A stretch of 64,000 bases of DNA, from the NCBI GenBank assembly GCA_001692895.1, contig KV748186.1, positions 2,657,785 to 2,721,784 of the forward strand, in the 5' to 3' direction. The notes beneath the pieces were generated by a model. It was given only the letters and a program-made list of their open reading frames with translations. It was not told the DNA's origin and searched no databases. This document shows positions 808-64,000 of this stretch, piece after piece. The first letter of the stretch is position 1; each line of letters opens with the position of its first letter. The position numbers and the translations under genes were made by a program. This stretch comes from Cenococcum geophilum 1.58. Its lineage: Eukaryota; Ascomycota; Dothideomycetes; Gloniales; Gloniaceae.

Positions 808-812
808 CTAAC

Positions 813-1233
813 TATAACAAAGCCTTATAGTAGGGACTACGGTAGACTTATTAATAGGCTAGGTGTGTAGGTATTACAAGTAAGTTAACAACGTAATAAT
901 AACTAGTGAAGTAGTTGCCTAATAGATTAACTCCAATTATATTCTAAGAATTACTATAAGAAAGGAACTATCTAGGTAGGGACTAAGGGTCCTTAAATAC
1001 ACAACCATACTCTTATAAAATCCTTCTTATACGTAATATACGTCTTATACATAAGGTACGTAAGTTCTCTTTATTCCTCTTATTTCTCTTATAGCACCTT
1101 ATATAACCTTAATTACTATTCTTTATTATATAGTTCTATAGGTTCTATTCTAGACCATGCTTATATTAACTAACTAGCTTCTTCTAACTTCTCTCCAAGT
1201 AGTTATAATATTATGCTTAAAGCGTTTATAACA
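813..1233 (-). repeat. 3' LTR of gypsy copy 1
   Basis: 421-bp LTR, lying to the right in element orientation (minus strand). It has exactly the same length as the other LTR of this element and both LTRs of copy 2. The ends correspond to the TG...CA termini of copy 2, but one end now reads TATAAC, a TG-to-TA change. CTAAC lies immediately outside. Confidence 0.9.
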
Positions 1234-4200: not shown

Positions 4201-7200
4201 ACGTGTTCTCTATATTCTTCCTTATTTATTAAGTAGATAATAATATTATTAAGGTATACTATAATAAATTCATCTAAATGTTCTCCTAATATATCGTTAA
4301 TACGCTTCTAAAATATTACTAGTGCGTTTATAAGCCCGAATTATATAACTAATAGTTTATATAGTCCTTCCTTTAACCTAAAGGCTGCCTTTTATTTGTC
4401 GCCTTTCTTAATTCTAATTTAATAGTATGCCCATCTTAGATCTATCTTTGTAAAGATTTGCGTATTGCCTATCCTATCTTAGATTTCGCTAATTAAGGGT
4501 AAAAGATATCTATCCTTCTTAGTAATGCTGTTTAACTATCTATAGTTAATATATAGTCTTAGTTTGCTATTCTTTTTTGGTATAAATAGTACTAGATATC
4601 CTACTAATAACTGCGATAGTCTAATATATCCCTTTTATAAGTTTTCTTAGATAAACTCTTTTAATGCTCTACCTTCTTCCTTAGTAAGTTTATAGATTGA
4701 AAAGAACCTTAGACTTATTTCTAGTTTTAATTCTATCTTATAGTCCTATACTATATACTCTAATAGCTTTTTACTCTTAGGTAACCATAGTTTCTTACTA
4801 TACTTATAGTATCTTTTCGGTATATAACTTAATCCTTTTTCCGTTTCTTTATAGGTCGTTTCTACTTAGTACTATACCAGCTTAGCTTATTATTGTATCT
4901 TACGGCGTTAAGTATCTTTAATATTAACCTAACCTATAACCTAATTAATCTTTGGATTATATTTCTGTAACTAAGGCATTCCTAATACTGCCTTATTATT
5001 CCCTAATAGTAATATATTAAAAGACATCTCGACTAGTCTTCCTTTAATAGTTAACTAAATAGGTCCTGTTTTAAGATTAATAATACCTCCTCTATAGGCT
5101 ATCGGATCCCCTAAAATCGTTACTAATAGGTAAAAACATTCCTTTTGCCTATGTAGTAATCCCATTCTTTTAACTGCTACTAGCGAGATATGGTTCCTTA
5201 TTACTCTACTATCTATTAATGCCTTAAACTATTAATCTTACTATTTAACTCGTAAGTTTAGGTATTATTCTTAAATTCCCTTAAGGGTCTAAGGCTCTAC
5301 TACTAGCTCCCTCTAGTTTTATAGGCCTCTACTTTTCCTAACTACTAGCTACTAGATCCTATTTATACTTAGTCTAACTTAGGCNAATACTTAGTTCGNT
5401 TTTTGTCTTTAATATNCTATAGATAGGNATTCTCTNGANATTCCCACNATTNTTATNNATCTAGGCATTCTTCCGTAAGGAATCTTCCTAGTTAAAGTAT
5501 TAAGTCCCCTTATTTTTAAACTTCTACTAGGTACTAACTATGTATATATTTAGCGTTTTAATACTTCGCCTTATCCGTCATCCAATATATCCTTATTAGA
5601 TACTTTTAATTTTTATCCTTTAGTGCTTTATACATGTTATACGCATTATCTACGTATGCTATCCATAATAGTATATAATATGCTTAATATTTTAGGTTAA
5701 CTCTTAGCTCGTCTTTATTCTTAAGTTTAAACCTCTTTTATATTAATCTAAGCGTTACGGCTTTATTCGCAGGTATTAAGATTTATCTTTTACTTCTCTA
5801 GTCCTTTAATTACTCCTTTAGATCCTTTAACGTTATAATTAAGGCTCCTTTAATATAGGTTATAGCCTTCTCTATAATTAGGTGGTTTTAGACAACTTTC
5901 TTATCCAACCACATATAGAAATCTTTCCACTTATTATTGTGTCGTTGCCTATACTACTTTTAGTACAGCTGCTTAAGTATATATAGCTTATTTATAAGGA
6001 AATATCTCTTTATTACTGCATTGTGACAGCCTTTAGTATATCGTTCCTTAAACCTAGTAGGAATCCCTAAATCCTCTTCTTATTCTAGTTCAGTAAGCCA
6101 CTTAGCTCTTAGTATGCCTATTCTAGGCCTATTAGTGACTCTTTATACTAGCGCTCTGTCCTTTATACATCCCAATATACTAAATCTCTTATCTAGTTTC
6201 TGTTCTTGCTATAAGGTAATTCTTGCCCTAAATTCCTCTATAGTTTCTTTTACATCACGTCTTATAAGTAGGTTCTTAAAGTCTTTGTGCTTCTTAATCT
6301 TAGTATTAACTTTTTAATCTTTAGGCTAAACGCCGTGTTCTTCTAGTAAGTCCTCTAGGTCTATATATCTGTCTCCTAGTCTAATTACTATTTGTGCTAT
6401 AGATTCTCTAATCTATAAAGAAGCCTCTTACCTCTTATTTATGGGTGTCCTAATTCATACTCCAAATTCTTAACCCCTTAGATTCTTTAATCCTAAGCTT
6501 GCTTTTAACTTAAGCTTAGCCCCTACTTTAGTCTAACTAGGCTTAACTAGTGTCCTCGTCTTCTCTTAAGAGTCCTAGATCTTACTTATCTTATCTTAAA
6601 AATCTTATACCATTAGGAATTCTTACCCCAAGCTTATTTATATATTCTTAAACTAAGCTACTACTCTGCTCCATCGGTTTCTATCCGTTGTAGGTCTTTA
6701 AGCTTACCTTATCTTATCTTAAGAATCTTAGTTATCTCTTATCTCGTCTTAAGAATCTTAAGCCTTTAGCTTTTTGCCTTTATTAAGTGGTAAGCTAGCA
6801 CTAGCAGTTATTTACTTACTTAATCACTTCTAGATATTACTCCTTCCGTCTTATAAAGTAATGGATGCCGTATCTAATGGTATTATAATACCTATTACTG
6901 AACCTTACTCTATAGCGGTCTCAGTCTCTACTTCTATTACGTTATTAAGGTTTAGATACCCCTAGTTAGTTCCTTTACTATCCTTATTGCTATTAATTAA
7001 TAAGTACTCTAACTCTATTATTATTGTTACTAATCTTTATCCGCACGTTACTATAATATCTTAATCTAGCTTATAGAGTTAATCTTATTCTTTATTTAAC
7101 TCTTTAGTTCCTCTAAGTCCCTTTAACTCTAGCTCTTATAGCTAATAGCTTATACCGTACTTAGCGTCTTTATAAATTTAGTATATATTATTATAATAAA

Positions 7201-8395
7201 ATACAAAACTTCTAATTAAACATTCCTTTATTCCTCGCAGTGCACTATTATCCCTCTATACATATGTATTATATACTACTAGTCTAGTTCCCTTTATTAT
7301 ATAGTAACTCTAACTATCTTTATAATCCCTTGCGAAGTAACCCTATTTTCCGCAATTTATATAAGCTCCGTCTTTAAACTATTAACTTTATTATAGAGTC
7401 CGCCTAAACGTCTTCTGCTATTAAGATCCCTAGTTTAGCCTATACTCCTTAATCCTATAATTACTAAATCCTTAACCTCTAGGTTTTTATAGTTTCTTAC
7501 TTTATCTCTTATAGGCTTCTTTAGTACCACTTAGGTCCATTAGCTTTACGCTATACTATAGTTTCTAACTTAGCTTTAGTTATTGCGTACTCTACGTCTT
7601 ATATAACTATAGAACTCTATCCTAGCCTCTCTTAGCCTGTTCCCTTTAGAAGATCCTATTATTAATCTTAATCACTTAATCNATTAATTCCCTTAGGGTA
7701 TCCGCATCTTCTATTAGAATAATTACGTCCTAGACTTTAGCCTTAAGTNCTTGTTTATACTATGCTATAAGCGCCTTATTATTCTACTTAAGTTATATAG
7801 CTAGCGTTTAGAATTATATCGTGTACTTAATTACTAAAGTCCGTTACATTAGGTCCTAAAGCTTTTTTTCCACTATAGCTATTACTTTTAGGTCCCCAAA
7901 CATCTATATAAGTCGCTCTATAAATCTATTCTAGCTTAAAAACATAAACCGTACTTCCTAGTTTATTATTATTATTCCGTTTACTTATATCTCTATAAGG
8001 TAAGGCTTAAACTATTTAAGTGCTCTTCCTAATAAGAATAATCCTGCATATGCTACTTAATCCATAGTTATTACTAGCTTTACTTCTTCCTGCGCGACCT
8101 TAAAGTGTATTTATATAAGGAATCCTTTAAGCTTTAATCTTTCTCCTAAGAATCTTTTAATTAATAGTAACTTAACCTTTACTACTTCTATCCCATTAAT
8201 CCTATTTTTAAGTGCCGCATTATCTCCCGTTAACTAATTAACTATTATTTATAACTATCCTACTATTACAGGTTATTATAAGTTAGTGTTTGCTATACTA
8301 GTGTCGTTACCTAATCCTAACATAGTTGCCGCCGTTAATGGCGTTATAGTGGCATATTATTTAACTTATTAAAACCGTAACTGTAATAGTAATTA

Positions 8396-8816
8396 TATAA
8401 CGAAGCCTTGTAGTAGGGACTACGGTAGACTTATTAATAGGCTAGGTATATAGGTATTATAAGTAAGTTAATAACGTAATAACAACTAGTGGAGTAGTTG
8501 CCCAACAGATTAACTCTAATTATATTCTAAGAATTACTATAAGGAAGGAACTATCTAGGTAGGGACTAAGGGTCCTTAAATACACAACCGTACTCCTATA
8601 AAATCCTTCTTATACGTAATATACGTCTTATACGTAAGGTATATAAGTTCTCTTTATTCCTCTTATTCCTCTCATAGCACCTTATATAACCTTAGTTACC
8701 ATTCTTCATTATATGGTTCTATGGGTTCTATCCTAGACCGTGCTTATATTAACCAACTAGCTTCTTCCAACTCCTCTCTAAGTAGTCGTAACATTGTGCT
8801 TAAAGCGTCCGTAACA
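8396..8816 (-). repeat. 5' LTR of gypsy copy 1
   Basis: 421-bp LTR, the upstream LTR in element orientation. The internal side (minus strand) reads into TAATTACTATTACAGTTAC, matching the putative primer-binding region after the 5' LTR of copy 2. CTAAC at 8817-8821 is the target duplication. Confidence 0.9.
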
Positions 8817-11801: not shown

Positions 11802-12222
11802 TGTTACGGACGCTTTAAGTACAATGTTACGACTACTTAGAGAAGAGTTAGAAGAAGCTAATTGGTTAATATAGGCACGGACTAGGATGGAACCAGTGGA
11901 ACCATATAACGAGGAATGGTAAAGTCACGTAATGTGATCTGTATAATCTGTGTAATCTACAAGATCTATAATAGAGCGAACAGAGTAGACAGAGTAGATA
12001 GAGTAACGACTTTCTTAGGAGTACGGTTGTGTATTTAAGAACCCTTAATCCCTACCTAGATAGTTCCTTCCTTATAGTGATTTTTAGAATATAATTAGAG
12101 TTAATCTATTAGGCAACCACTCCACTAGTTATTATTACGTTGTTAACTACTATCTTTACATTTCCTATACACCTAGCCTATTAACGAGCCTATCGTAGTT
12201 CCTGCTACAAGGTTCCGTTACA
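11802..12222 (+). repeat. 5' LTR of gypsy copy 2
   Basis: 421 bp, starting TGTTACGG and ending CCGTTACA. It is followed by TAATCACTACCTAGTTAC, a candidate primer-binding region. It keeps more C/G bases than the LTRs of copy 1. Confidence 0.93.
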
Positions 12223-15200
12223 TAATCACTACCTAGTTACAGTATTAAATATAGAAAGTCGAATAACATACCACTAAAAGCAGCCACCATAACGCTATTG
12301 ACGGCGGTAACTACGTTAAGGTTAGGGGGTAACACTAATATGGCGGATACTAACTCGTAACAACCTGTAACGGTAGGACAGTTATAAGAAATAGTTAACC
12401 AGTTAATAGAAAATAATGCAGTACTTAAATAAAGGATTAACGGGATAGGCATAGTAAAGGTTAAGTTATTATCGATTAAAAGATTCTTAAGAGAGAGATT
12501 GAAGCTTAAAGGATTCCTTATATAAATATATTTTAAGGTTGCGCAAGAAGGAGCAAAGCTGGCGACACCTATAGATTAAATAGCGTACGCAGGGTTATTT
12601 CTAATAGGAAGAGCACTTAAATAGTTTAAGCTTTACCTTATAAAGATATAAGTAAACGGAATAACAACTACGAACTAAGAGGTACGGTTTATGTTTTTAA
12701 GCTAGAACGGATTTATAGAGCGACTTATATAAATATTTAGAGACCTAGAGGCAGTAACTATGGCGGAAAAAAAACTCTAAGATATTATATAGTGAACCTT
12801 AGCAATTAAGTATATAACGCAGTTTCAAACATTAGCAATATAAGTTAAGTGGAATAATAAGGCGCTTATGGCACAGTATAAATAGGGACTTAAGGCTAAA
12901 GTCTAGGATATAATTATTCTAATAGAAGATGTGGACACCCTAAGGGAACTAATAGATTAAGTAATAAAGATTAATAATAGGATCTACTAAAGGGAACAGA
13001 CTAAGAAAGGTTAGGATAGAGTTCTATAGTTATATAAGACGCAAAGCACGTAATAACCAAAGCTAAGTTAAAAACTATAGTATAGCGTAGAGCTAATAGA
13101 CCTAAGTAGTACTAAAAAAGCCTATAAGAGATGGAGTAAGAAACTATAAAAACCTAAAGGTTAAGAATTTAGTGATTACAGGACTAAGGAGCAGAGGCTA
13201 AACCAAGGATCTTAATAGCAAAAGACGTTTAGGTGGACTCCATAATAAAGTTAATGGTTTAGAGACGGAGCTTATATAAATTATAGAAAATAGGGTTACT
13301 TCGCAAGGGATTATAAAGATAGTTAGAGTTACTATATAATAAAGGGAACTAGACTAATAGCAAAAGACATATACGTATAGAGGGACGATAATATACTATA
13401 AGGAACAAAAGAGTGTTTAATTAGAAGTTTTGCGTTCTATTATAATAACATATACCAAATTTATAAAGACGCTAAGTATAGCGTAAGCTATTAGCTACAG
13501 GAGTTAACACCTATAGGATATAGAGGAACTAATAAACTAGTTTATAGATCGGATATTAAGGACGATAAATTCGACGTAGGTAAAATATTTTATAATAATA
13601 AGGCAACGAAAGTAGCTTACTAGGAGTATATAGACCTTAAAGATGTTATATTAGAGGTAGAGAATAATTCCACTATAGAATAGGGAACATTAGTAGGGAT
13701 CGAAACCCCACTAGATATAATGTCTATCGCTTCGCGAGATATAAGAGAAGTAGGATAGTAAACCACTTCGGCACTCAATAAAGGTAAAGGGCTAAAGGCT
13801 TAAGATTCTTAAGACAAGATAAGAGATAACTAAGATTCTTAAAGTGAGATAAGGTATACCTAAGGACCCACAACGGACAAAAACCGATAGAGTAGGGTAG
13901 TAGCTTAGTTTAAAGATATATAAATAAGCTCGGGATAAGAATTCCTAACGGCATAAGACTCTTAAAACAAGATAAGTGAGATTTAAGACCCTTAAGACGA
14001 GATAAGAACACTATAGACGCCTAGTTAGACTAAGGCGGGAGCTAAACTTAAGTTAGAAGCAAGCTTAGGATTAAAGAATCTAAGGGACTAAGAATTTGGA
14101 GCGCGAATTAGGACACCTATAAGTAAGAGGTAAGGAGCTTTTTTATAGATTAGAGAATCTATAGCATAAATAGCAATTAGACTAGGAGATAGATATATAG
14201 ACCTAGAAGACTTACTAGGGGAATATAGTGTTTAGCCTAAAGATTAAAAAGCCGATACTAAGATTAAGAAGTAAAAAGACTTTAAGGATCTACTTATAAG
14301 ACGCGACGTAAAGGAAATTATGGAGGAATTTAGGGTAAGAATTACCTTATAGCAAGAACAGAAACTAGATAAGAGATCTAGTATATTAGGACGTATAAGG
14401 GATAGAGCGCTAGTATAAAGGATTACTAATAGGCCTAGAGCAGGCATATTAAGAGCTAAGTAGCTTACTAAATTAGAACAAAAAGAGGATTTAGGGATTC
14501 TTACTAGGTTTAAGGAACGACATACTAAAGGCTATTATAACGTAGTAATAAAGAGATATTTCCTTACGGACGAGCTGTATATACTTAAGTAGCTATACTA
14601 AAAGTAGTATAGGCAACGATATAATAATAAGTGGGAGGATTTCTATATATGGTTAGATAAAAAAGTTATTCAAGACCACCTAATTACAGAGAAGGCTATA
14701 ACTTATATTAAGGGGGCCTTAATTATAATATTAAAGGATCTAGAGGAGTAATTAGAGGACTAGAGAAGTAAAAGGCGAATCTTAGTACCCGCAAACGAAG
14801 TTATAACGCTTAGATTAACACGAGAAAGGTTTAAACTTAAGGACAAAGATAAACTAAGAGTTAATCTAAGACATTAAGCATATTATATACTATTGTGGAT
14901 AGTATACGTAAATAATACGTATAATATATATAGAGCACCAAAAAACAAAAATTAAAAGTATTTAATAAGAATGTATTAGATGACGGATGAGGTAAAGTAT
15001 TAAAATGCTAAGTATATGCATGGTTAGCACCTAGTAGAAGTTTAAAAATAAGGGGACTTAATACCTTAACTAGGAAGATTCCTTATAGAAGAATACCTAG
15101 ATAGATAATAATAGTAGGAATATCTAGAGAACACCTATCTATAGTATATTAAAGATAAAAAATAAACTAAGTATTAGCCTAAGTTAGACTAAGTATAAAT

Positions 15201-18200
15201 GGGATTTAGTAGCTAGTAGTTAGAAAAAGTAGAGGCCTATAGAACTAAAGGGAGCTAGTAGTAAAGCCTTAGACCCTTAAAGGAATTTAAGGACAACACC
15301 TAAATTTATAAGTTAAATAGTAAAATTAATAGTTTAAGGCATTAATAGATAGTGGAGTAATAAGGAACTATATCTTACTAGTAGCAGTTTAAAAAATGGG
15401 GTTACTATATAGGTAAAAGAAACGTCTTTACCTATTAGTAACAATTTTAAGAGATCCGATAGCCTATAGAGGAGGCATTATTAATCTTAAAATAGGACCT
15501 ATTTAGCTAACTATTAAGGGAAGATAAATCGAGATGTCTTTTAATATATTACTATTAGGGAATAATAAGGCAGTATTAGGAATGCCTTAGTTATAGGAAT
15601 ATAATTTAAAGATCAATTAGATTACAGGTTAGGTTAATATTAGAAATACTTAACGCCGTAAGATGCGATAATAAGCTAAGTTAGTATAGTACTAAATAGA
15701 AGCAACCTACGAAGAAATGGAAAAAGGGCTAAGCTATATACTAAAGAGATACTATAAGTATGGTAAAAAACTATAGTTACCTAAGAGTAAAAAGCTGTTA
15801 GAGTATATAGTATAAGACTATAAAATAGAATTAGAATTAGGAATAAGTCTAAGGTTCTTTCTAATCTATAAGCTTACTAAAAAAGAAGGTAGAGCATTAA
15901 AAGAGTTTATCTAAGAAAACTTATAAAAGGAATATATTAGACCATCGTAGTTATTAGCGGGTTATCCAGTACTGTTTATACTAAAGAAGAATAGCAAACT
16001 AAGGCTATGTATTAACTATAAATAGTTAAACAGTATTACTAGAAAGGATAGGTATCCTTTACTCTTAATTAGCAAAATCTAAGACAAGATAAGTAATATA
16101 TAAATTTTTATAAAGATAAATCTGAGATGGGCGTACTATTAGATTAGAATTAAGGAAGGTAATAAATAAAAGGCAGCCTTTAGGTTAAAGGAAGGACTAT
16201 ATAAACTATTAGTTATATAATTTAGGCTTATAAACGTACTAGTAATATTTTAAAAGCGTATTAATAATATATTAGAAGAATATTTGGATGAATTTATTAT
16301 AGTATACTTTAATAATATTATTATCTACTTAATAAATAAGGAAGAACATGGAGAATATATTAAATAGGTTTTAAAGAGACTATAGGAAGAACAAATGCTA
16401 GTAGTAATTAAGAAATGCGAGTTCTTTACTAGGAAGACCAATTTTATTAAATTTATTATTAAACTAGGCCAACTTAGTATAGATCTAAAAAAGATTAAGG
16501 CTATAGTAAATTAGTAAGAACTAGAGAATATTACGCAATTAAGATTGTTTTTAGGGTTTTATAATTACTATAGAAGGTTTATAGCGCAATAGTTAAAGGA
16601 TATTAAACTATTTACGCAATTAATAAAGAAAAAAGAACCGTAGGTATAGGGAGAGGAACAGTAAGAACTCTTTAAGAAAGTTAAAGAGTTATTTACCCAG
16701 GAGCTAGTTCTTAAGATCTATTAACTAGGACTAGAGACGGTTATAGAAATAGATATATTAGACTTTGTACTAGGAGCATATTTTATATAAAAGTATCTAG
16801 ATAGATGGCATCTAGTAGTATATTATAGTTAGAAGATAATACTACCAGAATTAAACTATAATATCTATAATAAGGAGTTATTAGGTATAGTTATAGCACT
16901 AAAAAAATAAAAAGTATTCTTATAAGGTATAGAGAAACTATTTATAGTTAAAACGGATTATAAGAACCTAATAGAATTCCTAATAATAAAGGAACTTAAC
17001 TAAAGATAGGTTAGATAGGCAGAGATACTTATAGAATACTATTTTAAGATTTAGTATACTAAGGGTATAGACAATACGTAAGCTAATGCGTTAAGTTAAA
17101 AGGCTAAATTATAAAATAATAATAAGCTATTAAGGGCTTTACTACAAAAAGATATAGATGGACTGATTAGGTATAATTATCTAAAAATTATAATAACTTA
17201 AAAGGATAAGTTAGAAAAGGTCTATAAGATATTAGAAAGCTTTTAGGTATAAAGAATTCTAAAAGTATAGCTAGAAGATCTATAGTTAGATATATACGAA
17301 AATTAAAAAGCGAAGTATATCCTAAGAAGTATAGCAGAGTAGTTTATAGAGAACTTTTATAAGGGACTAACTTAAGGACATAATGGAGCTATGGGCTTAG
17401 TATTAAGACTTTAGGAGGAGTATATTATTAACAGAATTTAAAGGATAGCTAGAAAGGTTACTAAAGAGTATTTAGATTACTAAAGGAATAAACTAACGAG
17501 GTATAAGCCGTATAGAGGGCTATAACCTATTAAAACACTAGAGAGACTATAGGAGGTTATATTATAGGACTTTATTATTAAGTTACTAAAGTTAAGAGAT
17601 CCTATTACTGGATAAGATTATAATATAATTTTAGTAATAGTAGATAAGCTTATAAAGTAGGGATACTTTATAGCCTATACGGAAGAAATCTTAGCGGAAG
17701 ATATTACTAGAATCTATATTAAAGAAGTATTTATAAGATACGGAGCACTAAGTAAAATTATATTAAATAGAGATTTAAGATTTGTAATAGTATTTTAGGA
17801 GGTATTTTTAGCGGAATAAGGAGTTTAAGTAGTAACTTTTACCGCATATTATCCGCAAATAGACGGTTAAACGGAAAGATTAAACTAGACACTAGAGTAG
17901 TATTTAAGGTATTATATTAATTACGCATAGAATAATTGGGTATTGCTATTACTAGTTACACAGTTTATATATAACGTAACACTATAAGAAGGAATAGGTA
18001 CGTTACTATTTAAGGCGAATTATGGATATAAGCCAAAAACATTATTATCGCTATGTTAAGTAAAGAAAATAAGTAGTAAAGCTAAGTAAAGAATGGAGAC
18101 TTTAATAAATCTTTATGTAAACCTTATAGAAATAGCTAAGGCAGTATAGCAAAGAATAAAAAAGTACTATAATGCTAAGAGATCTAAGGAACTAGATCTT

Positions 18201-19348
18201 AAGGAGGGAGATAAAGTGTGGCTACTATACAAAAATTTTAAAAGTTAATAACTAAGTAAGAAGTTAGACTATGTTAGACTAGGACCTTTTAAAATTATAT
18301 AGAGAATTTTATTAGTTATATTTAAGTTAAACCTACTAGCTAAAATAAAGATCTACCCTATATAGTATATCGCGATGCTAGAGCCAGTATATAGGAATAT
18401 TAAGCCACTAGTTTATAAGGTAGACACGTATAAAGGTTAGGAAGAAGACAAATAGTAAGTTTTAAAGATTATTAGTTATAAGGACATTAACAATAAAATA
18501 TAGTATAAGGTTAAGTAGATAGGCTACACTAAAACTACCTAGGAGCTACTAGAGAATTTAAAGAACGCTATAGGAAAGGTATAAGAGTATTAGAAGAAAA
18601 TAGGTTAGGCAATATTAATAAAGAAGGATCGTTAAAGAATGAGTTACCTAAGGGGGACCCAAAAAGAGCGACTGCCGAACTACTTGGAGTTATTCCCCGC
18701 ACTATAGGAGGAGAGTTAGTTCTTTTATTACTAAGTTCCTATAAACCTTATTCTATAAGTTTCTACTTCTTAAAATAGACCTTCTTACGAACCTTCTTAA
18801 GACGGATTAACTAAGTGGACGCCGCAAGACAAGACTTAAGGGCCCGTTACTAAGCATTAGCAGCCTCTTATTCTATATTATAGGAACGGCATAACTCCGC
18901 CAGAGTAATAGACAGTTTATTATCTAGCCGCGTAGCAGTAGATTAAATATAAAACCTTAAGATAAATTAACTAGGGAACCAGATGACTATTAAGAGTAAT
19001 AAATTACGTATATTTAGCATTAGAGACGGAGCGAACGTTATAGGATAAACAAATATTCGCTTTAGTGCACTCTAAGTAAAAGGACGGTTACTATAAAGAT
19101 GGATTTGCTAACGCAATATAGACTAACCTCTTTTTTAAACAATAAGAATACGGAGACGGTATAATTTTACTAAAAGATAATATTGCAGCAATAGTGCGAA
19201 TACGACGAGCGGTTAAAGAAGAAGAAATTGCTTTGGGTATAATAAGCGATAATATTAACCAAATTAATTAGATGGATATTATACCTCTAGTAAACGACCT
19301 GAAGATGCTAGGTATCTTTGAGGACGAAGATAAAGAGGAGGGAAATAG

Positions 19349-19769
19349 TATTATAGACGCTTTAAGTACGATATTATAACTACTTAAAGAAGAGTTAGAA
19401 GAAGCTAGTTGGTTAATATAGGCACGGACCAGGATGGAACTAGTGGAACTATGTAACGAGGAATAGTAAAGTCATATAATATAATCTGTGTAATCTATAT
19501 AATCTACGAAATCTATAATAGAGCGAATAGAGTAAATAGAGCAGATAGAGCAACGACTTTCTTAGGAGTACGGTTGTGTATTTAAGGACCCTTAGTTCCT
19601 ACCTAGATAGTTCCTTCCTTGTAGTAATTCTTAGAATACAATTAGAGTTAATCTGTTGGGCAACCACTCCACCAGTTGTTATTACGTTGTTAACTACTGT
19701 CTTTGCATTTCCTATACACCTAGCCCATTAACGAGCCCATCGTAGTTCCTGCTACAAGGTTCCGTTACA
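19349..19769 (+). repeat. 3' LTR of gypsy copy 2
   Basis: 421 bp, ending CCGTTACA directly before the GAGGC duplication. The 5' end reads TATTATAG instead of TGTTACGG; all differences are C-to-T or G-to-A. Confidence 0.93.
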
Positions 19770-52827: not shown

Positions 52828-54784
52828 ATGCGTTTCGCTGTTGTTGCTACGGCCCTCCTGTCTGCTGCCATTGTGAGCGCAGACGTCGCCGACGATCTTA
52901 AAGATGCCTCTTCATCAGTCTCTTCTGCTGTAGAGTCTGCCACATCTTCTGCCGTCGAGAAGCCTACTTTCACTGTACGTGCTTGCTATGTTGCGCATCG
53001 TAAGCTGCGGAATGTGCCTGCTAACATCTTCACAACAGCCCACCACCCTCAAAGCCCCATTCCTCGAACAGTTCACCGATGATTGGGAATCAAGGTGGAA
53101 GCCTTCCCATGCGAAGAAGGAGAATGATAAATCTACAGAAGAAGAATGGGCCTATGTTGGCACATGGGCAGTTGAAGAGCCATCTGTCCTGAAAGGCATG
53201 GAAGGTGATAAGGGTTTGGTCATCAAGGACAAGGCTGCTCATCATGCAATCTCCGCCAAGTTCCCCAAGGTCATTGATAACAAGGGCAAGACCCTAGTGG
53301 TTCAGTATGAAGTAAAGCTTCAGAGTAAGATAATTGTCACTCTCCTGCTTATATGTGATACTGATTTATTGCAGATGGTCTCGAGTGCGGTGGAGCTTAC
53401 ATGAAACTTCTCCAAAATAACAAGGCCCTCCACGCCGAAGAGTTTTCCAACGCATCTCCATACATCATTATGTTCGGTCCTGACAAGTGCGGTGCCACTA
53501 ACAAGGTAAGCTTGTACTAGACAGTTAGGAGCCCGCATGATTTGCTAATTCAGTTAAGGTACATTTCATCTTCAGGCACAAGAACCCCAAGACAGGTGAA
53601 TATGAGGAGAAACACCTGAAAAACCCGCCCATGGCTCGCATCGTCAAGACTACCTCCCTGTACACACTCATCGTCAAGCCGGATAATTCCTTCGAGATCA
53701 AGATTGACGGCGAATCACTCCGCAACGGCACCCTCCTTGAAGATTTCACCCCATCTGTCAATCCTGAAAAGGAAATTGATGACCCCAAGGACAAGAAACC
53801 AGATGATTGGGTCGACGAGGCTCGTATCCCAGACCCTGAGGCCAAGAAGCCTGAAGATTGGGACGAGGAAGCGCCATTCGAGATTGTCGATGAGGAAGCT
53901 ACGCAGCCCGAAGACTGGCTTGAGGACGAGCCCACTACCATTCCAGACCCAGAGGCCGAGAAGCCGGAAGATTGGGATGATGAAGAGGACGGTGACTGGA
54001 TCGCTCCTACCGTACCTAACCCCAAATGCGATCAGGTGTCCGGCTGTGGAAAGTGGGAACCACCCACGAAGAAGAACCCAGACTACAAGGGCAAATGGAG
54101 TGCGCCCTTCATCGACAACCCAGCTTACAAGGGTGTCTGGGCCCCAAGGAAGATTAAGAACCCCGACTACTTTGAGGACAAGACTCCTGCCAAGTTCGAA
54201 CCTATGGGTGCTGTAAGTCTTGTCAATGTTTTGGGGAGACGTAAAGATACTAATCAATTATATAGATTGGTTTTGAAATCTGGACTATGCAGAATGATAT
54301 TCTTTTCGATAACATCTACATTGGTCACTCCATTGAGGACGCTGAAAAGCTAAAGAGCGAGACCTTTGATCTTAAGATCGCTGCTGAGAAGACAGAGGAA
54401 GAGGCCAGCGCTCCTAAGCCATCTGACAAGCCTGAATCTCCTATGGATCTGAACTTCAAGGAGGACCCAGTACATTATATCAAGGAGAAATTCGACCTTT
54501 TCCTAACCATTGCCAAGAGGGATCCTATCGAGGCCATCAAGTTTGTACCTGAAGTTGCTGGCGGTCTCGGTGTTCTTGCCGTCACTGTACTCGCCATTGT
54601 GATATCTTTAGCTACTATGGGCAGTGGAGCAGCTCCCACTAAGGAGCAAGTCAAGGATGCCGCTAAGAAGGCGAAGGATGTCACAGTAGAGGCGAAGGAT
54701 AAGGCCGCTGAGGCAGTTGCCAGCGGTGCGGAGAAAGCTCAGGCGGAGGCTAACAAGCGCGCCACTCGTTCATCGGCGACGTAG
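52828..54784 (+). CDS. Calnexin (ER lectin chaperone)
   Basis: Five exons: 52828-52974, 53039-53324, 53375-53505, 53559-54212, 54266-54784; 578 aa with all phases consistent and GT...AG introns of 50-64 nt. It has a signal peptide ([18 protein letters not shown]), a Ser-rich stretch, then the lectin domain ([19 protein letters not shown] with GPDKC as the likely disulfide partner). The proline-rich P-domain arm at about residues 260-395 has four KPEDW/KPDDW/QPEDW repeats, then [17 protein letters not shown], the ERp57-type binding arm. [16 protein letters not shown] closes the lectin fold. One membrane helix (about 505-524, [15 protein letters not shown]) precedes a 54-residue Ala/Lys-rich cytosolic tail. 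It binds monoglucosylated N-glycans of folding glycoproteins in the ER. Neighbour of the dehydrogenase gene 0.5 kb downstream; no functional link is evident. Confidence 0.98.
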
Positions 54785-55295
54785 GAAGGTGAACAATTAA
54801 ACAAAGGTGAGTAGACACGATAGAGGGATGTGACTGAAAAAGCCTGATCTTTTGTGGAGGGTGGTGCAGAGAATGAGAGCTGCTATATGCTTGGATTATT
54901 CGAGGTATTTTCGAGGTATTATCAAACATATCGCTGCAGGCGTCAATGGTGCTATGATGTATTATAGCGCTCGTATCGAGGGATGGAATTTTTCACGATG
55001 TCTCTCTGCTTTTGCACTGCTTGAATCTTAATGATCAGTGACACCCGAGGGTCGGAAGATACATGTTGCAGGATATCTCTTTCTGTGACTTGGCGTTGCT
55101 CGGTTTTCGTCGGCAGCTCGGCTTTAACCCCCGTGGGATCCCCGGAGGCAAATAAGCGGATAACAACAATCCTAGAATTCTATTCTCCATATTCTAATGG
55201 CAAAATAATATCAAGACTCTCTTCAAGAGTGATTGAGCAATTAATTCAACCCTTCGGAGTCCAAGAGTGCTGTTCTTACCCATCAAATCTCCACA
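54785..55295. promoter_or_regulatory. Calnexin 3' flank and promoter of the dehydrogenase gene
   Basis: 511 bp between two plus-strand genes. It must hold the calnexin polyadenylation signals and the next promoter. A repeated GAGGTATT word lies near 54901-54920. No other gene is visible. Confidence 0.5.
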
Positions 55296-57196
55296 ATGGC
55301 TGCGCGTCGAGCTCTAACGCCCAACCTCGCAACTTTAGCCACCCGCTCATCCGTACCTCGAATTGCTTCCCTATCCTCAAGAATATCTTCACCTTCGTCT
55401 AGCACAAGCAAGATAGCTTCGAGGCGTCTGCACGCCACTGCAAAGCACCTTCGACCTGCTACAACAACAGCTGCCTCCACCGCCGATTCGTACCCACTCT
55501 CCCATGACCTTATTGAGTCACCGGTAGACACCCAAAACTTCCTCGACAACAAATCCGTACCTTCAAAAGCCACGACATGGTTAGATTTATACGACCCAGC
55601 AACGAACAATCTGGTAACAAGGGTACCTCAGAGCACGGATTCGGAGCTCAAGGCCGCCGTCGAAAGTGCACAGAAAGCCTTCCCTGGGTGGAGGGAGACT
55701 AGCTTGTTACACAGACAGCAAATCATGTTCAAGTATGTTGCACTTATCCGGGAGAATTGGGACAGGCTCGCTGCCTCGATTACGCTGGAGCAGGGTAAAA
55801 CGCTTGCGGATGCCAAGGGTGATGTATTGAGAGGGCTGCAGGTCGCTGAGACGGCCTGTGGCATCACTACGCAGATGGCTGGTGAGGTGCTGGAGGTGGC
55901 AAAGGACATGGAGACGAGGAGCTACAGAGAGCCCTTGGGTGTTGTGGCAGCAATTTGTCCATTCAGTAAGTATTCCAGGAGACGTGCTTCTGAGGTGTAT
56001 CCGCGGCTAATTGCTGTGTAGATTTCCCTGCTATGATCCCCCTCTGGTCTATTCCAATCGCTACTGTCGTCGGAAACACAATTGTCGTTAAGCCTTCGGA
56101 GCGTGACCCCGGCGCCTGTATGATTCTAGCTGAGCTGGCGGAGAAGGCTGGTTTCCCACCGGGCGTTGTGAACATTGTACATGGTGCTGCGCGGACTGTT
56201 GACTTCATCCTCGACGAGCCTCTCATCAAAGCCGTGAGCTTCGTTGGAAGCAACAAAGCAGGCGAATATATATATTCGCGAGCGTCATCAAATGGTAAAC
56301 GTGTCCAGGCAAATCTGGGTGCTAAGAACCATGCTGCCGTATTGCCGGATTGCAACAAGAACCATGCATTGAATGCCATTGCGGGCGCTGCTTTTGGCGC
56401 TGCTGGCCAGAGATGTATGGCCTTGAGCACATGCGTTATGGTTGGCGAGACAAGGGAGTGGGTGTCAGAAATTGCGGAAAGAGCAAAGTTACTTAAGATG
56501 AACGGCGGATTTGAGGAGGGCGCAGATTTAGGCCCCGTGATTAGTCCCGAAGCTAAGAAGAGGATTGAGGATATAATCGCCAGCGCTGAGGAGGAGGGTG
56601 CGACAATTTTGCTTGATGGCCGGGGTAAGAAGCCAGAGAAGTATCCTAATGGCAATTGGGTAACTAATCCCTTTCCTTCATCAACGCTCTGGAAAGGTTT
56701 GAACTAATATATTTAATATAGGTTGGCCCAACGATCATTGCCAACGTAAAACCACACATGCGATGCTACACTGAGGAGATCTTCGGGCCCGTTCTCGTTT
56801 GCCTCAACGTTGAGACCATCGACGATGCTATTGAGCTCATCAACAAGAACGAATATGGAAACGGTACTGCCATCTTTACCCGTTCCGGTGCCACCGCCGG
56901 GCGCTTCCAGCGTGAGATCGAGGCCGGCCAGGTTGGTATCAACGTCCCCATCCCTGTGCCTGTAAGTAGATATTCTCTGTTACTGACCCCAATAATCAGA
57001 TCTGCTGACATTGTAGTAGCTCCCTATGTTCAGCTTCACTGGTAATAAGAAGAGCATTGCAGGTGGAGGTGCGAACACATTTTATGGAAAGCCAGGACTT
57101 CAGTTCTATACTCAGCAGAAGACTGTGACTAGTTTATGGAGGAGTGAAGATGCGGTAGCGACGAAGGCTAGTGTAAATATGCCGACACACAGCTAG
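55296..57196 (+). CDS. Methylmalonate-semialdehyde dehydrogenase (acylating), mitochondrial
   Basis: Four exons: 55296-55965, 56022-56659, 56722-56961, 57020-57196; 574 aa, introns of 56-62 nt, all in phase. The N-terminus is Arg/Ser/Ala-rich without acids ([19 protein letters not shown]), a mitochondrial presequence. It is an aldehyde dehydrogenase of class 6: [20 protein letters not shown] in the cofactor-binding region, [10 protein letters not shown], the catalytic motif GQRCMALST with Cys355, [13 protein letters not shown] and the class-typical [21 protein letters not shown] end. The enzyme converts methylmalonate semialdehyde (and malonate semialdehyde) with CoA and NAD+ to propionyl-CoA (acetyl-CoA), in valine, thymine and beta-alanine breakdown. 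The start is chosen because it supplies the targeting peptide after AATCTCCACA. Intact and ordinary. Confidence 0.97.
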
Positions 57197-58261
57197 GTTC
57201 AAGGCGAGTCAGAACAAGGTTCACTCGTGTGGTGGTAAGAGACACGCCCTGGCGTACTCAATTTTTAATTGAATTAATCTAAAGGTTTCTGATGTAGGTA
57301 GGATGTAAAAATTGAAGATATGAGAGTTCGATTGGCAAAAAAATAAAAATCACCACAGCTAGCTTGAGTTGTGTCCTAGCCTTTCTAATCAACTTTAAAG
57401 TAAGGACTTCGTATATGGAGAGATGTTAGAGTTGTCTCATGCGTCATCGATGCATCCACTCAACTTCCGACGTGCTAGTCATGCCCTTTTTGATGGTTTC
57501 AAACACTTAACGGAACTATGGAGATCTCTGTGTTTTGGTTTTACAGCACTTCGGATTCTCGTCTAGAATCTACATGGACTGGCCTGGACCTAGTAAATGG
57601 TCACTATTTGTACGCCTTCATAGGCCATTCGTGGGATAAACCGGGAGTCCAAAGCCAAATGCGGATAATAGGAGAGCCCCAAGACCATCAAATGACAAAT
57701 TCTGTCCTAACTAGCATCGACGTCGAGATATAGTGCTGTAATAGATGCCTGACATTACTTTATTCAAGGCTTAAAAGCAAACTGAGAAAAAAGTGCTGTA
57801 TTACAATGGTTGTTATACCCATCGATTTGGCTTCGATGACCAAAGGAAAGCGCGGTAGTAGCGTACGTTGCTTCTCACGTTTGGTTATCTGGTGTGACGG
57901 TACTATTACGCCCAGTCAGGCTGCCATGCGAAAGCCTATTTTTATCTTCCTAGAGAAGGGCCGGGGTGTCTTTCTGGCGCGTGGAGGCGATTGCAATGGC
58001 GTTTTGAGGTGAAACATGGCGGTGCCACACAAGGCTTATTCCCACGCAGCTCGACGAAAGGCACAGCAGAGGGATTGGTTATGGGCACAGTCTGCGTTGA
58101 AATACGAGTAAACAGATATCGCTATCGAAAACGTGTTTTCTGAGGTTGGGCAAGCTGATGACCAGGTTGATGAGGTAATTGTGACGTTCCCGGCGCTAAC
58201 ATGTGCCACCGCATTACACGGTTTAAGCTAGCTTTCACATTGACCAGTCAATTCGCGTCGA
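57197..58261. other. Intergenic region without a supported gene
   Basis: Open frames of about 70 codons at 57518-57733 and 57806-58012 have no domain or conserved look. Nothing else was recognised. Confidence 0.45.
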
Positions 58262-58550
58262 ACGGTTATCGATAAGAACTAGCCAATCAATCGGGCTGAA
58301 TTTAACGCCCGTACTGAGGAATATAAAGCTTTTGATTATATAGTAATTTGATATACACGCCTAATTTTGGGAGTTAAGTCGCTTGATATGAGGTTTCTGG
58401 CACTTACCCTTCCTGTAGAACCGTATTTTGCATTGTAGTAAGTAATTAATTGATGGAATCTATATAGAAACACGCGTTGTTTAAAAAATTGGTGTTTGCG
58501 CACGGACCACTTACTCGTGGGACACTGACGGGTCAAGGGAGGGATACGTA
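58262..58550. repeat. Diverged copy of the 32691-32988 repeat
   Basis: Shares GTTATCGATAAGAAC, GGAATATAAAGCTTTT, AGTCGCTTGATATGAGG and GTGTTTGCGCACGGACC-like words with the element at 32691-32988, in the same order and spacing. The right end (GGGTCAAGGGAGGGATAC) resembles the other copy's terminal repeat; the left end is not clear. Confidence 0.6.
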
Positions 58551-58857
58551 CCTCGTGCTTACCGCCGCGCTCTTTTTCTGGACCTTGGTATTTCAACATT
58601 GGTTTTTTGACCAGAAACCCCGGGGAGTCAGGTTGAAGATACATAGCCGCAAGAACTGTACATCAAACAAGTCGGTTTAGCCTAGACATGAAAGCGTGGT
58701 GGCGGCGATGGTGGGAGAATGCCCTGACTGTCTTGTAAGACACAAGCATTACCACAGTCACAATTCATGGTAGAAGGTCCTTTTATGCAATCAAGGTGCC
58801 GCAGGTCCAGAGTGGGAGGGGGCGAAACTCGATGGGCATGTTGTATTACCCTTAGAT

Positions 58858-59346
58858 TTAGAGTGGGCAGTGGCCAAATACATAGCTGTCCAGCAGCTTA
58901 TCTGCAAAGAAGTCTCCCATAAGTCCTGATTTGGAAAAGCAGGAAAAGAAGGCAGAGCAGGCATCAGCAACCAACCCTAGCCCGGGTAAATTGGGTTGAA
59001 GTCCATGTGCATTAATACACGACCGATAAGGCTGGGAGTTGGTAAAAAAAAGCCTGGGTAGCTCCCACAACCTTGGATCCAACTAATGTTTGAAGGTGGT
59101 GTGAAGACTGGCCCTAGAAGTAGACAGTTTTCGAAAGAGCAGAAGAGGAAAAAGGAAACAAAGGCTATATTTCCAGGCTTTTCTGGGGAAGGCTGGGGAA
59201 TGTGCGTCCAAGCAGCCACGGCGCCACGTTATTGATGTATGGCTCGAACACGTTAGGATAGGAAGGAACGGAAGGAAAGAGTTTCCGCTGTGGCCAAGTG
59301 CGCCTCCAACCGTCTCAGCGCTGCATTAGGCATAGGGAAGAAAGCC
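58858..59346 (-). pseudogene. 5' fragment of a second beta-lactamase-like gene copy
   Basis: The minus strand of 59080-59346 repeats 49811-50105 (most bases identical), including the start codon (here 59219), the signal peptide IAFVSFFLFC and FENCLLLGPVFTPPSNIS. It differs by a ~22-bp deletion after TTCTGCTC and a short insertion before the ATG. Homology ends at ATTAGTT, after which the sequence is unrelated (a second minus frame reads GLGLVADACSAFFSCFSKSG, unidentified). Only the secretion signal and a few residues remain, so it cannot be an enzyme. Confidence 0.75.
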
Positions 59347-59509
59347 ATATGGATAATCCATCGCGCGGGTGAAGACAGCCTTTTAGAATTTTACGATAGT
59401 TAAATTTAGGCACAATTGCTATTTATTTATTATCGCGGGCCTAGAATGCGCAAAATACCTGATTAAAAAAATTGGCCTGTTTTCAAAACCGGCGGCCTTC
59501 GTATGTATA

Positions 59510-59592
59510 CACGTGACTGCACGTGATGTCACGTGTAGACATATGATGATAAGATAAGAGAATTTCTGCTACGACCTAACTTTGTGCACGTG
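59510..59592. promoter_or_regulatory. Cluster of CACGTG E-boxes with exact 10-bp spacing, plus GATA sites
   Basis: CACGTG occurs at 59510, 59520 and 59530 (one helical turn apart) and again at 59587. GATAAGATAAG (59549-59559) gives two HGATAR-type sites next to them. The sequence is plain; any role is inference. The nearest features are the minus-strand beta-lactamase fragment (59346) and the Ulp1-type gene downstream. Confidence 0.5.
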
Positions 59593-60421
59593 CTATATGT
59601 CGGCGCTGGAGCTCCGCAGCGCTCCTGGCGTCAAATCATTATTTTGGTAGATGGAGTGGATTTGCCTTCAGACCCGCTCCACTCCGGTCCAAATAGATCA
59701 CCGCACCGCAATCCTAATGCCAGGACTTTCTGTCAAAACCATACGCCGTAAGCTTATACCTAGATGGTTAGCATGGATTTCGAGACAAGGTCACTCTAAA
59801 GGTCAACCTTACGAAATTCCAAACCAAAGTGTCTTGTCCATTCACTTGTTTGATCTCATCTGGCGTTCGATTACGCACTCCATATTTATTGGGGAGTCTG
59901 TAAAGAAGACCAATAAGTGGGCCTGTGCCTGTATTTAATTTAGACGTCAGCAGGGTTGGCAGTTCAGAGGATGAGGGGGGAATAGGATAAAGGGAAAATG
60001 ATGATCGCTTAGCCTATCAAGCATTCTCTCGAGCACTACGCAAGCCTATTCCCTAAGTTCATCAGCATCATCATCGTGGTCGTTGTTATCGTCATGTTCG
60101 TCACTTGCGTCATCCTCGTCGTCTTCGCTGTCACACTGGTAGAATCTATGTAGTGATGGTTGACTAGTAGCCGTTGGCTTTAGACATGAGCGTGATCCTT
60201 CGACATGATAGTCGAACACTTAGCGCCTAAGTGGTACTGTCGGTCTCGCTTTCCGTAGTAGAGGTATTAGAAATCGTTCGCGGTCTGCCCTTGCTGGAAA
60301 TATAAATGGAGGTGCAGGAATATCTTGTCGTGATTTCGGATATTGGACCAGCTAGATGCTTCGTCAATTGATTATTGGCAACCTTGCCGGAGCGGTATTA
60401 CCATTTGACGCCATGGAAGAT
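59593..60421. other. 3' flank of the Ulp1-type gene with an acidic minus-strand open frame
   Basis: The minus strand from about 60222 to 60050 is open and reads SLHRFYQCDSEDDEDDASDE followed by more Asp/His/Asn before a stop. It could be an alternative last exon of the Ulp1-type gene, or a relic; I found no splice pair that keeps phase. A 95-codon plus frame at 59651-59938 has no recognisable domain. Confidence 0.35.
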
Positions 60422-63400
60422 TCACCCATCATCGTTTTCCAGCTCCCTATCATCGTTACTCTGCTCTTCATTCGTAGGTCGGCCGGGTTTAGCGGTCTTC
60501 TTCTGCTGCGCCTGCCTTTTCACGCGGTTTAACTCTCTCTGACGGCATGACTTGCATTTCCGATCTGACCCTCTACCGTAGAATCTTGGTCTATTGTTGA
60601 GGCCGCATACGAGACAGATTTCACCGGTTGCTTTCGTACGCTCGACACGCACGCGATTATAACACGACCGGCATAGCCGCTGCTGCGGTGGCTTACCGAA
60701 CCAATCAGCTGATTTGGTAGCGGAGCATACGGAACAGACATTGGTCGCTGCGATAGTTTTATTCCTTTTCGGAACAGGCACATTAGCGGCGATATTGTCA
60801 TTTGGTTCTGGTCGGGATCTTTTTGACGGTGCTTTCGCGCCTTTAAAGTTAGTGGCACTTGGTCCGGAAGGCGTTATTGGCGCAGAGCCAGAATCAGGGT
60901 CGGAATCGGAGTCGGAATCGGAGTTGGAATCGGAGCCATGTATCTCTTCACGCCGCTCGTCGATTGGTACCACCGGGACACATTCCGAGCATATGATATT
61001 CTCAGCATCTAATGCTCCACGATGCCAGATGCCGGCGGTAACCTCATTGCACCTCTCACATAGCCGTTCATTGCGATGTGAGAGGCTGACACGGTTCCGA
61101 AATCCCACATTCCTCGTGAGGTACCCTGCGTAACTGAAGCTCTGATTTGCTTCCCGCATGCCACTTATTGTTTTCTGAGACTCTTTCATATCACTAATTT
61201 CATAGAATGTGGCAATCAAACGTCCGTGCTTGGGATCCCTCTTCAGCATTTCTTCAATGCTGTGCCGACGGAGGTCGTCCAGTATCCTAACTTCGAAATG
61301 TGCCCAGCAGGATGCGCCCCTCGCCTTGAAGACTTTGGGGAAAGTCGCGCCCATTTTAAGAGATGCGGCAATGGTCAAGTGAAAATTTATGCTTGGCCAT
61401 TGTCGGTGGAGGTTTCCCCAACTGTCATTAAGCGTTGTGGATCCATCAAGGCCAGTCTGCAATATTAGAACATTGCATCGTCGATTCCTGTAGTTATAGT
61501 TGTCATTGATGGTCTCCAGAAGCTGGTTAACATTTACATCTTCCGTGTAGGTTGATTTGCGTAATTCACAGTTGCTGAATAGGAGGTTGTTGCTGCTTGC
61601 TGCCACGCAGTGCGAAAATCGTGATCGTGTCCCATATTCCCATTCACTCGGGTCCGTAACCCGAGTATGCTCTTCGATATGCTGACCGAACCTAGAGAAC
61701 CAACTCTTGTACAATTTGTCTGTACGGTCTTCGGTTTTATCCCCCTCGTTTTCAAAGCCACCATGCTGTTTTTTCGAACTTATACGGTAGAGACAAATAA
61801 CCAGGTCGAAGCTATGCTGGATGTCATCAGCTTGATCGTCCGCGATATGACGATCGGATGAAAACAAAAGATCCGAATCCATGTCCCAGAATCTATGTTT
61901 CTCATCAAGTTCCCAGAGTCCGTTGTCCCGCGCGATAAAGCACTGCGAGGACTCGAGTAACTTCTTGATACAATTGCGCGCGGATTTTCTTGCGGTTACC
62001 ATTCTTTTGCCCATCCTCTGCATATATTTATCGACAATAGCAGTAAGGGAGAGCGAATGTTCGGACCCCTTCAGAATTGACGCAATGGCACTCTTGTAGG
62101 TTATGCCTTGGACCCATTCGGCATGTGCTTCTTCCATCTCGTCCTCCGAACTCAAATCACTGATACTGTCATTGCCAGCATAAGTGTCTAACGGCTTGTC
62201 TTCAAGCATGGCTAGAAATTCGCCGAGATAGTGAGCTCGATATCGACGAGCATAATCGGTTGGATCGCCAATATCCATTGACATAAGCACAGCATCGCTC
62301 AGTAGAGCCCTGCAATTGTGAATAGCAAAGATGCCGCAGTCATCGCGGTGTTGTTTTACACAAGGACCAAGAACCGGAATTGGCCAATCTCCAAAAAATA
62401 CCGGGTGGTAATATCCTAGGAGCGTCATAAACGCCTGTAGCTCCTGCGTAGCACATTCCCATGTTCCTTCATGACATTCGGAACCAATGCGGAATGAATC
62501 GTATACGATAATAGTCCGGATTGGAGAATTGCTGGCCTTAATAATAATCCAGTGGCGCCCAGTTGGGTTGTAGGGAAACAGAACGGTTTCCACACCCTCA
62601 GAAAGTAATGGATCGAACTGGAAGTCGAGAATGCCGTTATTTATCATTGCATCCCCAATCGTATCGTTAAGTTTTTGAGCAACACTCAGTTGCTGCCCGG
62701 CCTCGTCCCAGGATCTTCCAAGTATCCCCACTGTGGGAGACTGAAAAGGTAGGTATGCCGTTTTCCCATCTCCAGCGAGCGTTTCCGTAGAGTTGATGAC
62801 AAAATAATCGATAACCTGCTCATATAACCACTCTCCCGAATAGATCATGTCCTCAATATTGCTAAATGTCAATCCCTCATATAAATATCCAAGGGGCTTG
62901 CGGCGAATGAGAGCTGCATCTTGGTTTAGAGGTAGATTTTTCGCGTCGTTGAGGTAATGTTGAGAGATTTGGTAGATATAAGACGCAGCCCTCTGAAACA
63001 TGGGCGAATTGCCGCAGTCATGAAAAATTTTCGCCTTGTTTTTTACCTGGATAAGCCAATTTCGGCGTTTTTGGCTTGGTTCTTCGGGCTAAAATAACAT
63101 ATGTTAGCGTACTACTAGCAAAGGAACAGTATTATAGAGAGAGGTGTAAGAAGGTCTGCAGGGAAAGACGATAGCGCTTCATATAGTTGCAGAATTACAA
63201 GAAATCAGAAGAGAACGACTTACGGCGTAAGACGTGGCATGTGTATCTCTAGTCGAATCTGCTAACGATTCGAAGTCTTCCATATCATTCCTGTCGAAAA
63301 CCTGCGTCTATCTTAGCCCAAGCCTTATATGAGAGGGTCTTGGCGAGTCGGGGTATACATGATGGCGCGATTGAACTCTCTGGGCGTGGGTGTATCGTTT

Positions 63401-64000
63401 ATGTGGATGACTTACCAAAGAGTCATCGCCAACTTCCCCGTCGTCGGCGATCAAACTGAAGCCCTCCGTTTGCCCACTCAACCCTCCATTGGGTGCGGCA
63501 TCATCATTCAGCGAAGCCTGGACCGGAGTATCCTGCTGGCGCGCTGGAAGGGATTGAAACACCGCGGTGATATCCACTAGCACATTACGATCGCGAAGTG
63601 CCTTCTCTAGCAGCCTAATGGTAGACTGTACCACGTCTAAATCCCTCTGCGTAGATACCATATCAGACGGTACGGTCACGCTAACGGAAGAGAGAGGAAG
63701 AACGGCGTTCGCATTTGTGGCTGTAATGAAACGATTAATTAGCCGTTGAAGGATCTTTAAGGTGTACCGGACGCACCAGAACTGCCAGTGGTTGTGTCAT
63801 TAGCCACAGAAGGAGGACTTTTCGACGGCGAGGTGGCTGGGGTGCTTTCTCCTATAAGGGGTAGTACTCCGTTAACAATCCGGAAACAGGTAGTTGGTGG
63901 GTTACAGGAGGGCTTACCGAGAGCACCTCGTATCACTTTAATTGGTGAAGATAACGAATATTGAGATATACTTAGACCCTTTGATGATGATGCTGATGGG
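60422..64000 (-). CDS. Ulp1/C48 cysteine-protease protein with three GATA-like zinc fingers (5' end outside window)
   Basis: Five exons seen, all in phase: >64000-63918, 63851-63777, 63720-63416, 63301-63224, 63088-60422 (introns 66, 56, 114, 135 nt). The N-terminus is Ser/Thr-rich. The Ulp1 domain spans roughly the first 250 residues after Met 63001: GRHWIII (catalytic His), IVYDSF (Asp), then KQHRDDCGIFAIHNCRALL with the catalytic Cys and its oxyanion Gln, so the triad is complete. A winged-helix-like segment follows (SLSLTAIVDKYMQRMGKRMV, then NCIKKLLESSQCFI), an unassigned middle, a Ser/Asp repeat, and three CxxC-x(16-19)-CxxC fingers (CERC...CSEC, CSVC...CRSC, CLVC...CKSC). Ulp1 enzymes cleave SUMO/ubiquitin-like tags; many fungal relatives are linked to DNA transposons. 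No transposase is seen here. Function and substrate are inferred only. Confidence 0.85.

Follow-up and report, generated by a model that had tools for sequence, protein, structure and literature searches.

The stretch of DNA analysed here (hereafter the window, 64,000 nucleotides of Cenococcum geophilum 1.58) ends within a minus-strand gene spanning 60422..64458, of which 458 bases lie past the window edge and were read from the continuation of the contig. Four exons joined in phase by GT-AG introns give a predicted protein of 1243 aa (Table 1). Exon 1 totals 227 codons plus 1 base and returned no Pfam match; a second in-phase donor, at 63917, is an alternative. The first-pass annotation had proposed five exons splicing in phase. 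In-phase splicing stood, but the count did not, as the predicted model has four exons and its first ATG lies outside the window, at 64458. From its N-terminus, the protein comprises a low-complexity segment, a C48/Ulp1-type protease domain, a winged helix, a region of about 265 aa, and three modules of the form CxxC-x(16-19)-CxxC. A residue of the exon-4 open reading frame carries the full-length number minus 355.

Table 1. Exons and domains of the minus-strand gene at the end of the window
Feature	Position in window	Strand	Remarks
Exon 1, in-window part	63777..64000	-	Runs on to ATG at 64458 (L006 position 7243); low-complexity
Exon 2	63416..63720	-	GT-AG introns on both sides (56 and 114 nt); no Pfam match
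Exon 3	63224..63301	-	26 codons; 135-nt intron to exon 4
Exon 4	60422..63088	-	888 codons plus stop; all recognisable domains inside
C48/Ulp1-type cysteine protease domain	62279..62836	-	From WL motif GEWLYEQVID (by eye) to end of Pfam match
Winged-helix domain	61871..62104	-	By sequence closest to Forkhead (under the Pfam cut-off)
Middle region, ~265 aa	61061..61858	-	No Pfam family (residues 400-700 scanned: 0)
Zinc-finger-like module 1, C-x2-C-x19-C-x2-C	60980..61060	-	Weak DUF7573 match, E 0.013, below cut-off
Zinc-finger-like module 2, C-x2-C-x17-C-x2-C	60662..60736	-	GATA-like, 18.3 bits against a cut-off of 26.8
Zinc-finger-like module 3, C-x2-C-x16-C-x2-C	60545..60616	-	Cys spacing

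The reading frame of exon 4 is far longer than base composition would give, the longest open run in 500 base shuffles of this stretch being 199 codons versus 888 in the real sequence. Its codon usage is host-like. Indeed, it correlated at 0.89 with that of six other frames pooled, and those six gave 0.71-0.86 when each was left out in turn. The reference set consisted of five window frames, two of which overlap within a single dehydrogenase-like gene, together with the frame of an Ulp1-like gene found elsewhere in the genome. Downstream of the gene, at 59499-59546, lies a 24-nt near-palindrome (83%) with three CACGTG boxes.

Scanned over the whole 888 aa, the C48 family of Pfam (PF02902) matched with E 0.002 and 18.4 bits, under the cut-off of 20.7. 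Residues 1-310 of the exon-4 protein alone reached E 2.1e-4 and 21.6 bits, which is over that cut-off. The catalytic residues were found in order, His534, Asp552, Gln601, and Cys606 (full-protein numbering), and the earlier statement that all four are present was thus borne out. The Gln, however, is at C-5, one residue nearer the Cys than in three other aligned C48 domains (L001, L002, and L004), where it is at C-6. An hhalign match between the window domain and an alignment of three further C48 domains from this genome extended over 85 columns with E 1.2e-4 and a probability of 55%. It paired GRHW, YDS, and DCGIF, and it placed Gln601 beside a one-residue gap, so that its oxyanion geometry is only putative. 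With such a shift of one residue, the Gln could be misplaced and activity may be lost. In the N-terminal half of the protease, outside the Pfam match, GEWLYEQVIDYF by eye resembled IGWLNDEIINAY in the Ulp1-like gene. A phmmer search of the PDB with the C48 domain gave SENP5 as its sole match, at a non-significant E of 0.91. As compared with Ulp1, Ulp2, and SENP proteases (MEROPS C48), the window domain shares the WL motif (by eye), the His-Asp-Gln-Cys order, and the DCG motif, but it scores much weaker and has its Gln one residue closer to the Cys.

The genome searched (177.2 Mb, 162 contigs) gave five C48 family matches at four places, and the window gene was not among them. Judging from their translations, these were an Ulp1-like gene (L001), a Den1/SENP8-like gene (L002), an Ulp2-like gene in two pieces (L003 and L005), and an odd one (L004). 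Since all of these lie at other places, the window gene is a further, divergent C48-like gene. The Ulp1-like domain scored 68 bits and the Den1-like one 47 bits, versus 18.4 or 21.6 for the window gene, depending on whether the whole exon-4 protein or the fragment was scanned. The window gene also has the winged helix and its three fingers, whereas none were noticed by eye in the Ulp1-, Ulp2-, and Den1-like stretches read; Pfam scanning of the comparison loci covered the C48 parts of L001 and L002 only. The odd locus (G000:C57:924981-925322) has a C48-like domain of 26.3 bits with a stop within the matched stretch and is unlike the Ulp1-, Ulp2-, and Den1-like genes.

Downstream of the protease in the protein, the sequence resembles a forkhead. 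The Forkhead family (PF00250) matched the whole exon-4 protein under its cut-off, with E 0.0066, and the fragment with E 5.6e-4 and 20.4 bits against a cut-off of 27. In the genome, a Forkhead search gave eight matches at seven places, two rows being the halves of one gene, and the window gene was the weakest at 20.2 bits. The window winged helix has the helix-2/helix-3 pattern in common with forkheads, and its NCIKKLLESSQCF pairs without gaps with NSIRHNLSLSKAF of a forkhead locus of the same genome (L014). A wing Trp is possible, with two candidates, one in GLWELD (by eye) and one in RFW (MAFFT alignment). In contrast, the RH pair of the forkhead NSIRHNL motif is replaced by KK. The structural model of the fragment had a mean pLDDT of 56.6, a low confidence that makes it usable for the order of elements alone, and this order was that of a winged helix. 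Foldseek ranked a cullin WHB domain first for this model (E 0.022) and placed its leading forkhead at rank 13 (E 0.37), and the VIA-align list was likewise headed by Cdt1 and cullin WHB domains with forkheads behind. Winged helices bind proteins as well as DNA. The earlier description of a winged-helix-like segment therefore holds as far as the fragment match and the order of elements in a low-confidence model go, but the Forkhead score stays below cut-off. HARE-HTH was considered as the winged-helix family and dropped (E 0.17, no match in the genome). A further locus (L020, G000:C38:1468128-1468355) has a degenerate forkhead-like domain, scoring 28.6 bits, and after it an apparent C2H2 finger (by eye), in a 246-aa frame that adjoins a retropepsin-like frame (by eye); it is another unusual winged-helix and finger protein of this genome.

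The three finger-like modules are beyond chance. Indeed, when the residues of exon 4 (887/888) were shuffled 20,000 times, one module arose in 60 shuffles and two or more in none. Their Cys spacing is right for a putative four-Cys zinc site, and CxxC pairs can also be protein-binding. Their assignment to the GATA family was less straightforward. GATA (PF00320) matched the whole exon-4 protein below cut-off (E 0.01), and modules 1 and 3 gave no Pfam GATA match on the fragment. A genome search with PF00320 returned 16 matches, seven of them over cut-off, and module 2 came tenth with E 0.07. Sub-threshold matches to PF00320 occurred in 3/14 prokaryotic control genomes as well; given this and its rank, module 2 is not significant as a single module. 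It shares with GATA fingers the C-x2-C-x17-C-x2-C spacing and a Trp/Leu-Cys pattern, but it lacks the LCNACG motif of GATA zinc fingers. Thus, of the three GATA-like fingers first described, the CxxC modules are all present, but the GATA match concerns module 2 only and is below cut-off. With E up to 10, 10 families matched the C-terminal 229 aa; the other weak ones (such as DUF7573, SEEEED over a Ser/Asp tract, DUF5318, and FYVE) were all sub-cut-off and were set aside. Because the choice of fragments raises Pfam scores somewhat, we consider C48 to be well supported jointly with its motifs, and Forkhead and GATA to be fold-level resemblances. It is the middle region that may hold the real function of the protein. 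The model of the whole exon-4 protein had a mean pLDDT of 33.7.

Searches for relatives outside the genome were negative. Pattern scans of viral and prokaryotic contigs gave 1 and 12 matches, respectively, none of which was a relative, and PDB sequence searches gave nothing significant. NCBIfam returned two low-complexity matches only and PHROGs none. No Ulp1-forkhead-GATA protein was named among the matches listed from open-access PMC titles and abstract starts, and no self-addressing SUMO protease was found among those same listed matches. In PMC12730594, protease and finger terms had no occurrence. We read the protein as a new combination of known parts.

We consider it an even bet that the gene belongs to the host and encodes a nuclear protease for ubiquitin-like proteins, of C48 (Ulp1/SENP) type, which DNA-binding modules of its own would bring to particular sites on chromatin. 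Judging from similarity, the winged helix and the C-terminal fingers, which stand beside basic stretches, would hold the protein on DNA. The C48 domain, in which the Cys-His-Asp triad and the Gln are seen, would then cleave SUMO or a related modifier off nearby DNA-bound proteins, and local transcription or silencing would change as a result. SUMO, NEDD8, and ubiquitin are all candidates for this modifier. We infer proteolysis, DNA binding, and metal binding from the sequence, which also supports the earlier suggestion that a protease of this architecture would act on chromatin-bound substrates. The intact frame, the in-phase GT-AG introns, and the C48 fragment match over cut-off argue for this host protease, as do the hhalign match, the Forkhead match and order of elements of the winged helix, the three finger-like modules, the single copy found in the genome, the host-like codon usage, and the whole-gene RIP indices. 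Against it, all domain matches are weak, those to Forkhead and GATA lie under the Pfam cut-offs, the Gln is shifted, winged helices and CxxC pairs can bind proteins, the 5' 1.4 kb alone crosses the RIP thresholds, and the middle region may hold the real function. That it would be a DNA-addressed deSUMOylase, whose own winged helix and fingers find the sites where the tag is stripped, perhaps regulating repeat silencing, is a tentative idea that we think rather unlikely. The weak C48 score, set against those of the Ulp1- and Den1-like domains, and the shifted Gln would also suit a pseudo-protease, a chromatin protein whose C48 domain binds SUMO or a relative without catalysis and whose winged helix and fingers do the work. 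Yet the motifs HW, YDS, and DCGIF retain His, Asp, and Cys, which would hardly be expected had activity been lost long ago, and we regard the pseudo-protease as doubtful.

A transposon origin had also been put forward, either as a domesticated protein or as one component of an undescribed DNA transposon that would continue past 64000. The KDZ transposon group has Ulp1 domains, and in it, as in Ginger1, Mutator, and oomycete Crypton elements, an Ulp1-type protease sits on or beside a DNA-binding protein, as would be the case in the window gene. Ulp1/C48 domains accompany transposases or recombinases in elements of the Ginger1 and Mutator kinds (PMC2836005) and in oomycete Crypton elements (PMC3212892). 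Unlike these, the window gene had no DDE transposase or tyrosine recombinase matched by Pfam in exons 1, 2, and 4 or in fragments of exon 4 (the scan left out the 26 aa of exon 3). None of the nine pairs of inverted repeats of at least 14 nt in L006 (window coordinates 57216-67215, reaching 3.2 kb past the 3' end of the gene and 2.8 kb past its 5' end) surrounds it. Five protein queries of the genome (all of exon 4, the protease, the middle region, the C-terminal fingers, and exon 1) found the gene itself and no second copy. A DNA search with 6.9 kb around the gene recovered this locus and, besides it, a single match of 63 bases, 79% identical, to the stretch upstream of the gene. These searches scored the best candidates only (one in four of the protein searches, two in the fifth, and three in the DNA search), so that the copy number is a lower bound.

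PMC5023957 gives the C. geophilum genome as 178 Mb with 81% repeats, and we computed RIP indices along the window. For the whole gene, the product and substrate indices were 0.75 and 1.17, that is, no signature. The 5' 1.4 kb alone (exons 1-3 with introns) gave 1.08/0.92, which speaks against a host gene, although the indices are probably noisy on short, low-complexity stretches. The RIP thresholds are a product index above 0.89 and a substrate index below 1.03; both were crossed by the 5' stretch and one by the flank at 57000-60400 (0.93/1.14). Two neighbour genes at 53000-57000 gave 0.68/1.38, and the repeats at window 1-8000 gave 1.66/0.36. At 883-8603 and 12011-19695, the window holds two copies, in opposite orientation, of one long element that is strongly RIP-like by dinucleotide indices; its arms measure 5073 nt (88%) and 1224 nt (85%), and 138-nt repeats recur near the ends of the copies. 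Beyond the gene, L007 6500-10000 is AT-rich and RIP-like and by eye resembles a decayed non-LTR reverse transcriptase. On balance, the evidence from copy number, repeats, RIP, and codon usage fits a resident gene.

A still mobile, undescribed DNA transposon, for which the domain mix alone speaks, therefore looks very improbable: one copy was found, no transposase was matched in exons 1, 2, and 4, and no enclosing inverted repeats of 14 nt or more were found within the reach of L006. The extension past 64000 that had been proposed as a check turned up no such repeats around the gene in the 2.8 kb past its 5' end, and no transposase match in exon 1. It is more conceivable, yet still improbable, that the gene descends from a DNA transposon that once encoded an Ulp1-type protease with DNA-binding fingers and has become a single-copy host gene. 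The Ulp1/C48 domains of Ginger1, Mutator, and oomycete Crypton elements and the repeat-rich surroundings, RIP-like at window 1-8000 and 12000-19000 and in L007 beyond the gene, would fit such a domestication. However, exons 1, 2, and 4 matched no transposase or recombinase, no second copy or relic appeared among the best candidates scored, and none of the inverted repeats in L006 encloses the gene, all of which stands against it. Domestication was thus left with published Ulp1 domains in several transposon groups, and nothing else found pointed there.

Our preferred reading, a chromatin-directed host protease, bears on how SUMO proteases choose their substrates, since their specificity comes partly from localisation, according to PMC3216068. 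If it is true, the gene would provide a natural protease with its own DNA-binding modules, and hence a direct test of specificity given by localisation. It could also become a tool for SUMO removal at chosen loci. If the gene is merely a divergent, lineage-specific one, it would add modestly to the domain fusions already catalogued.
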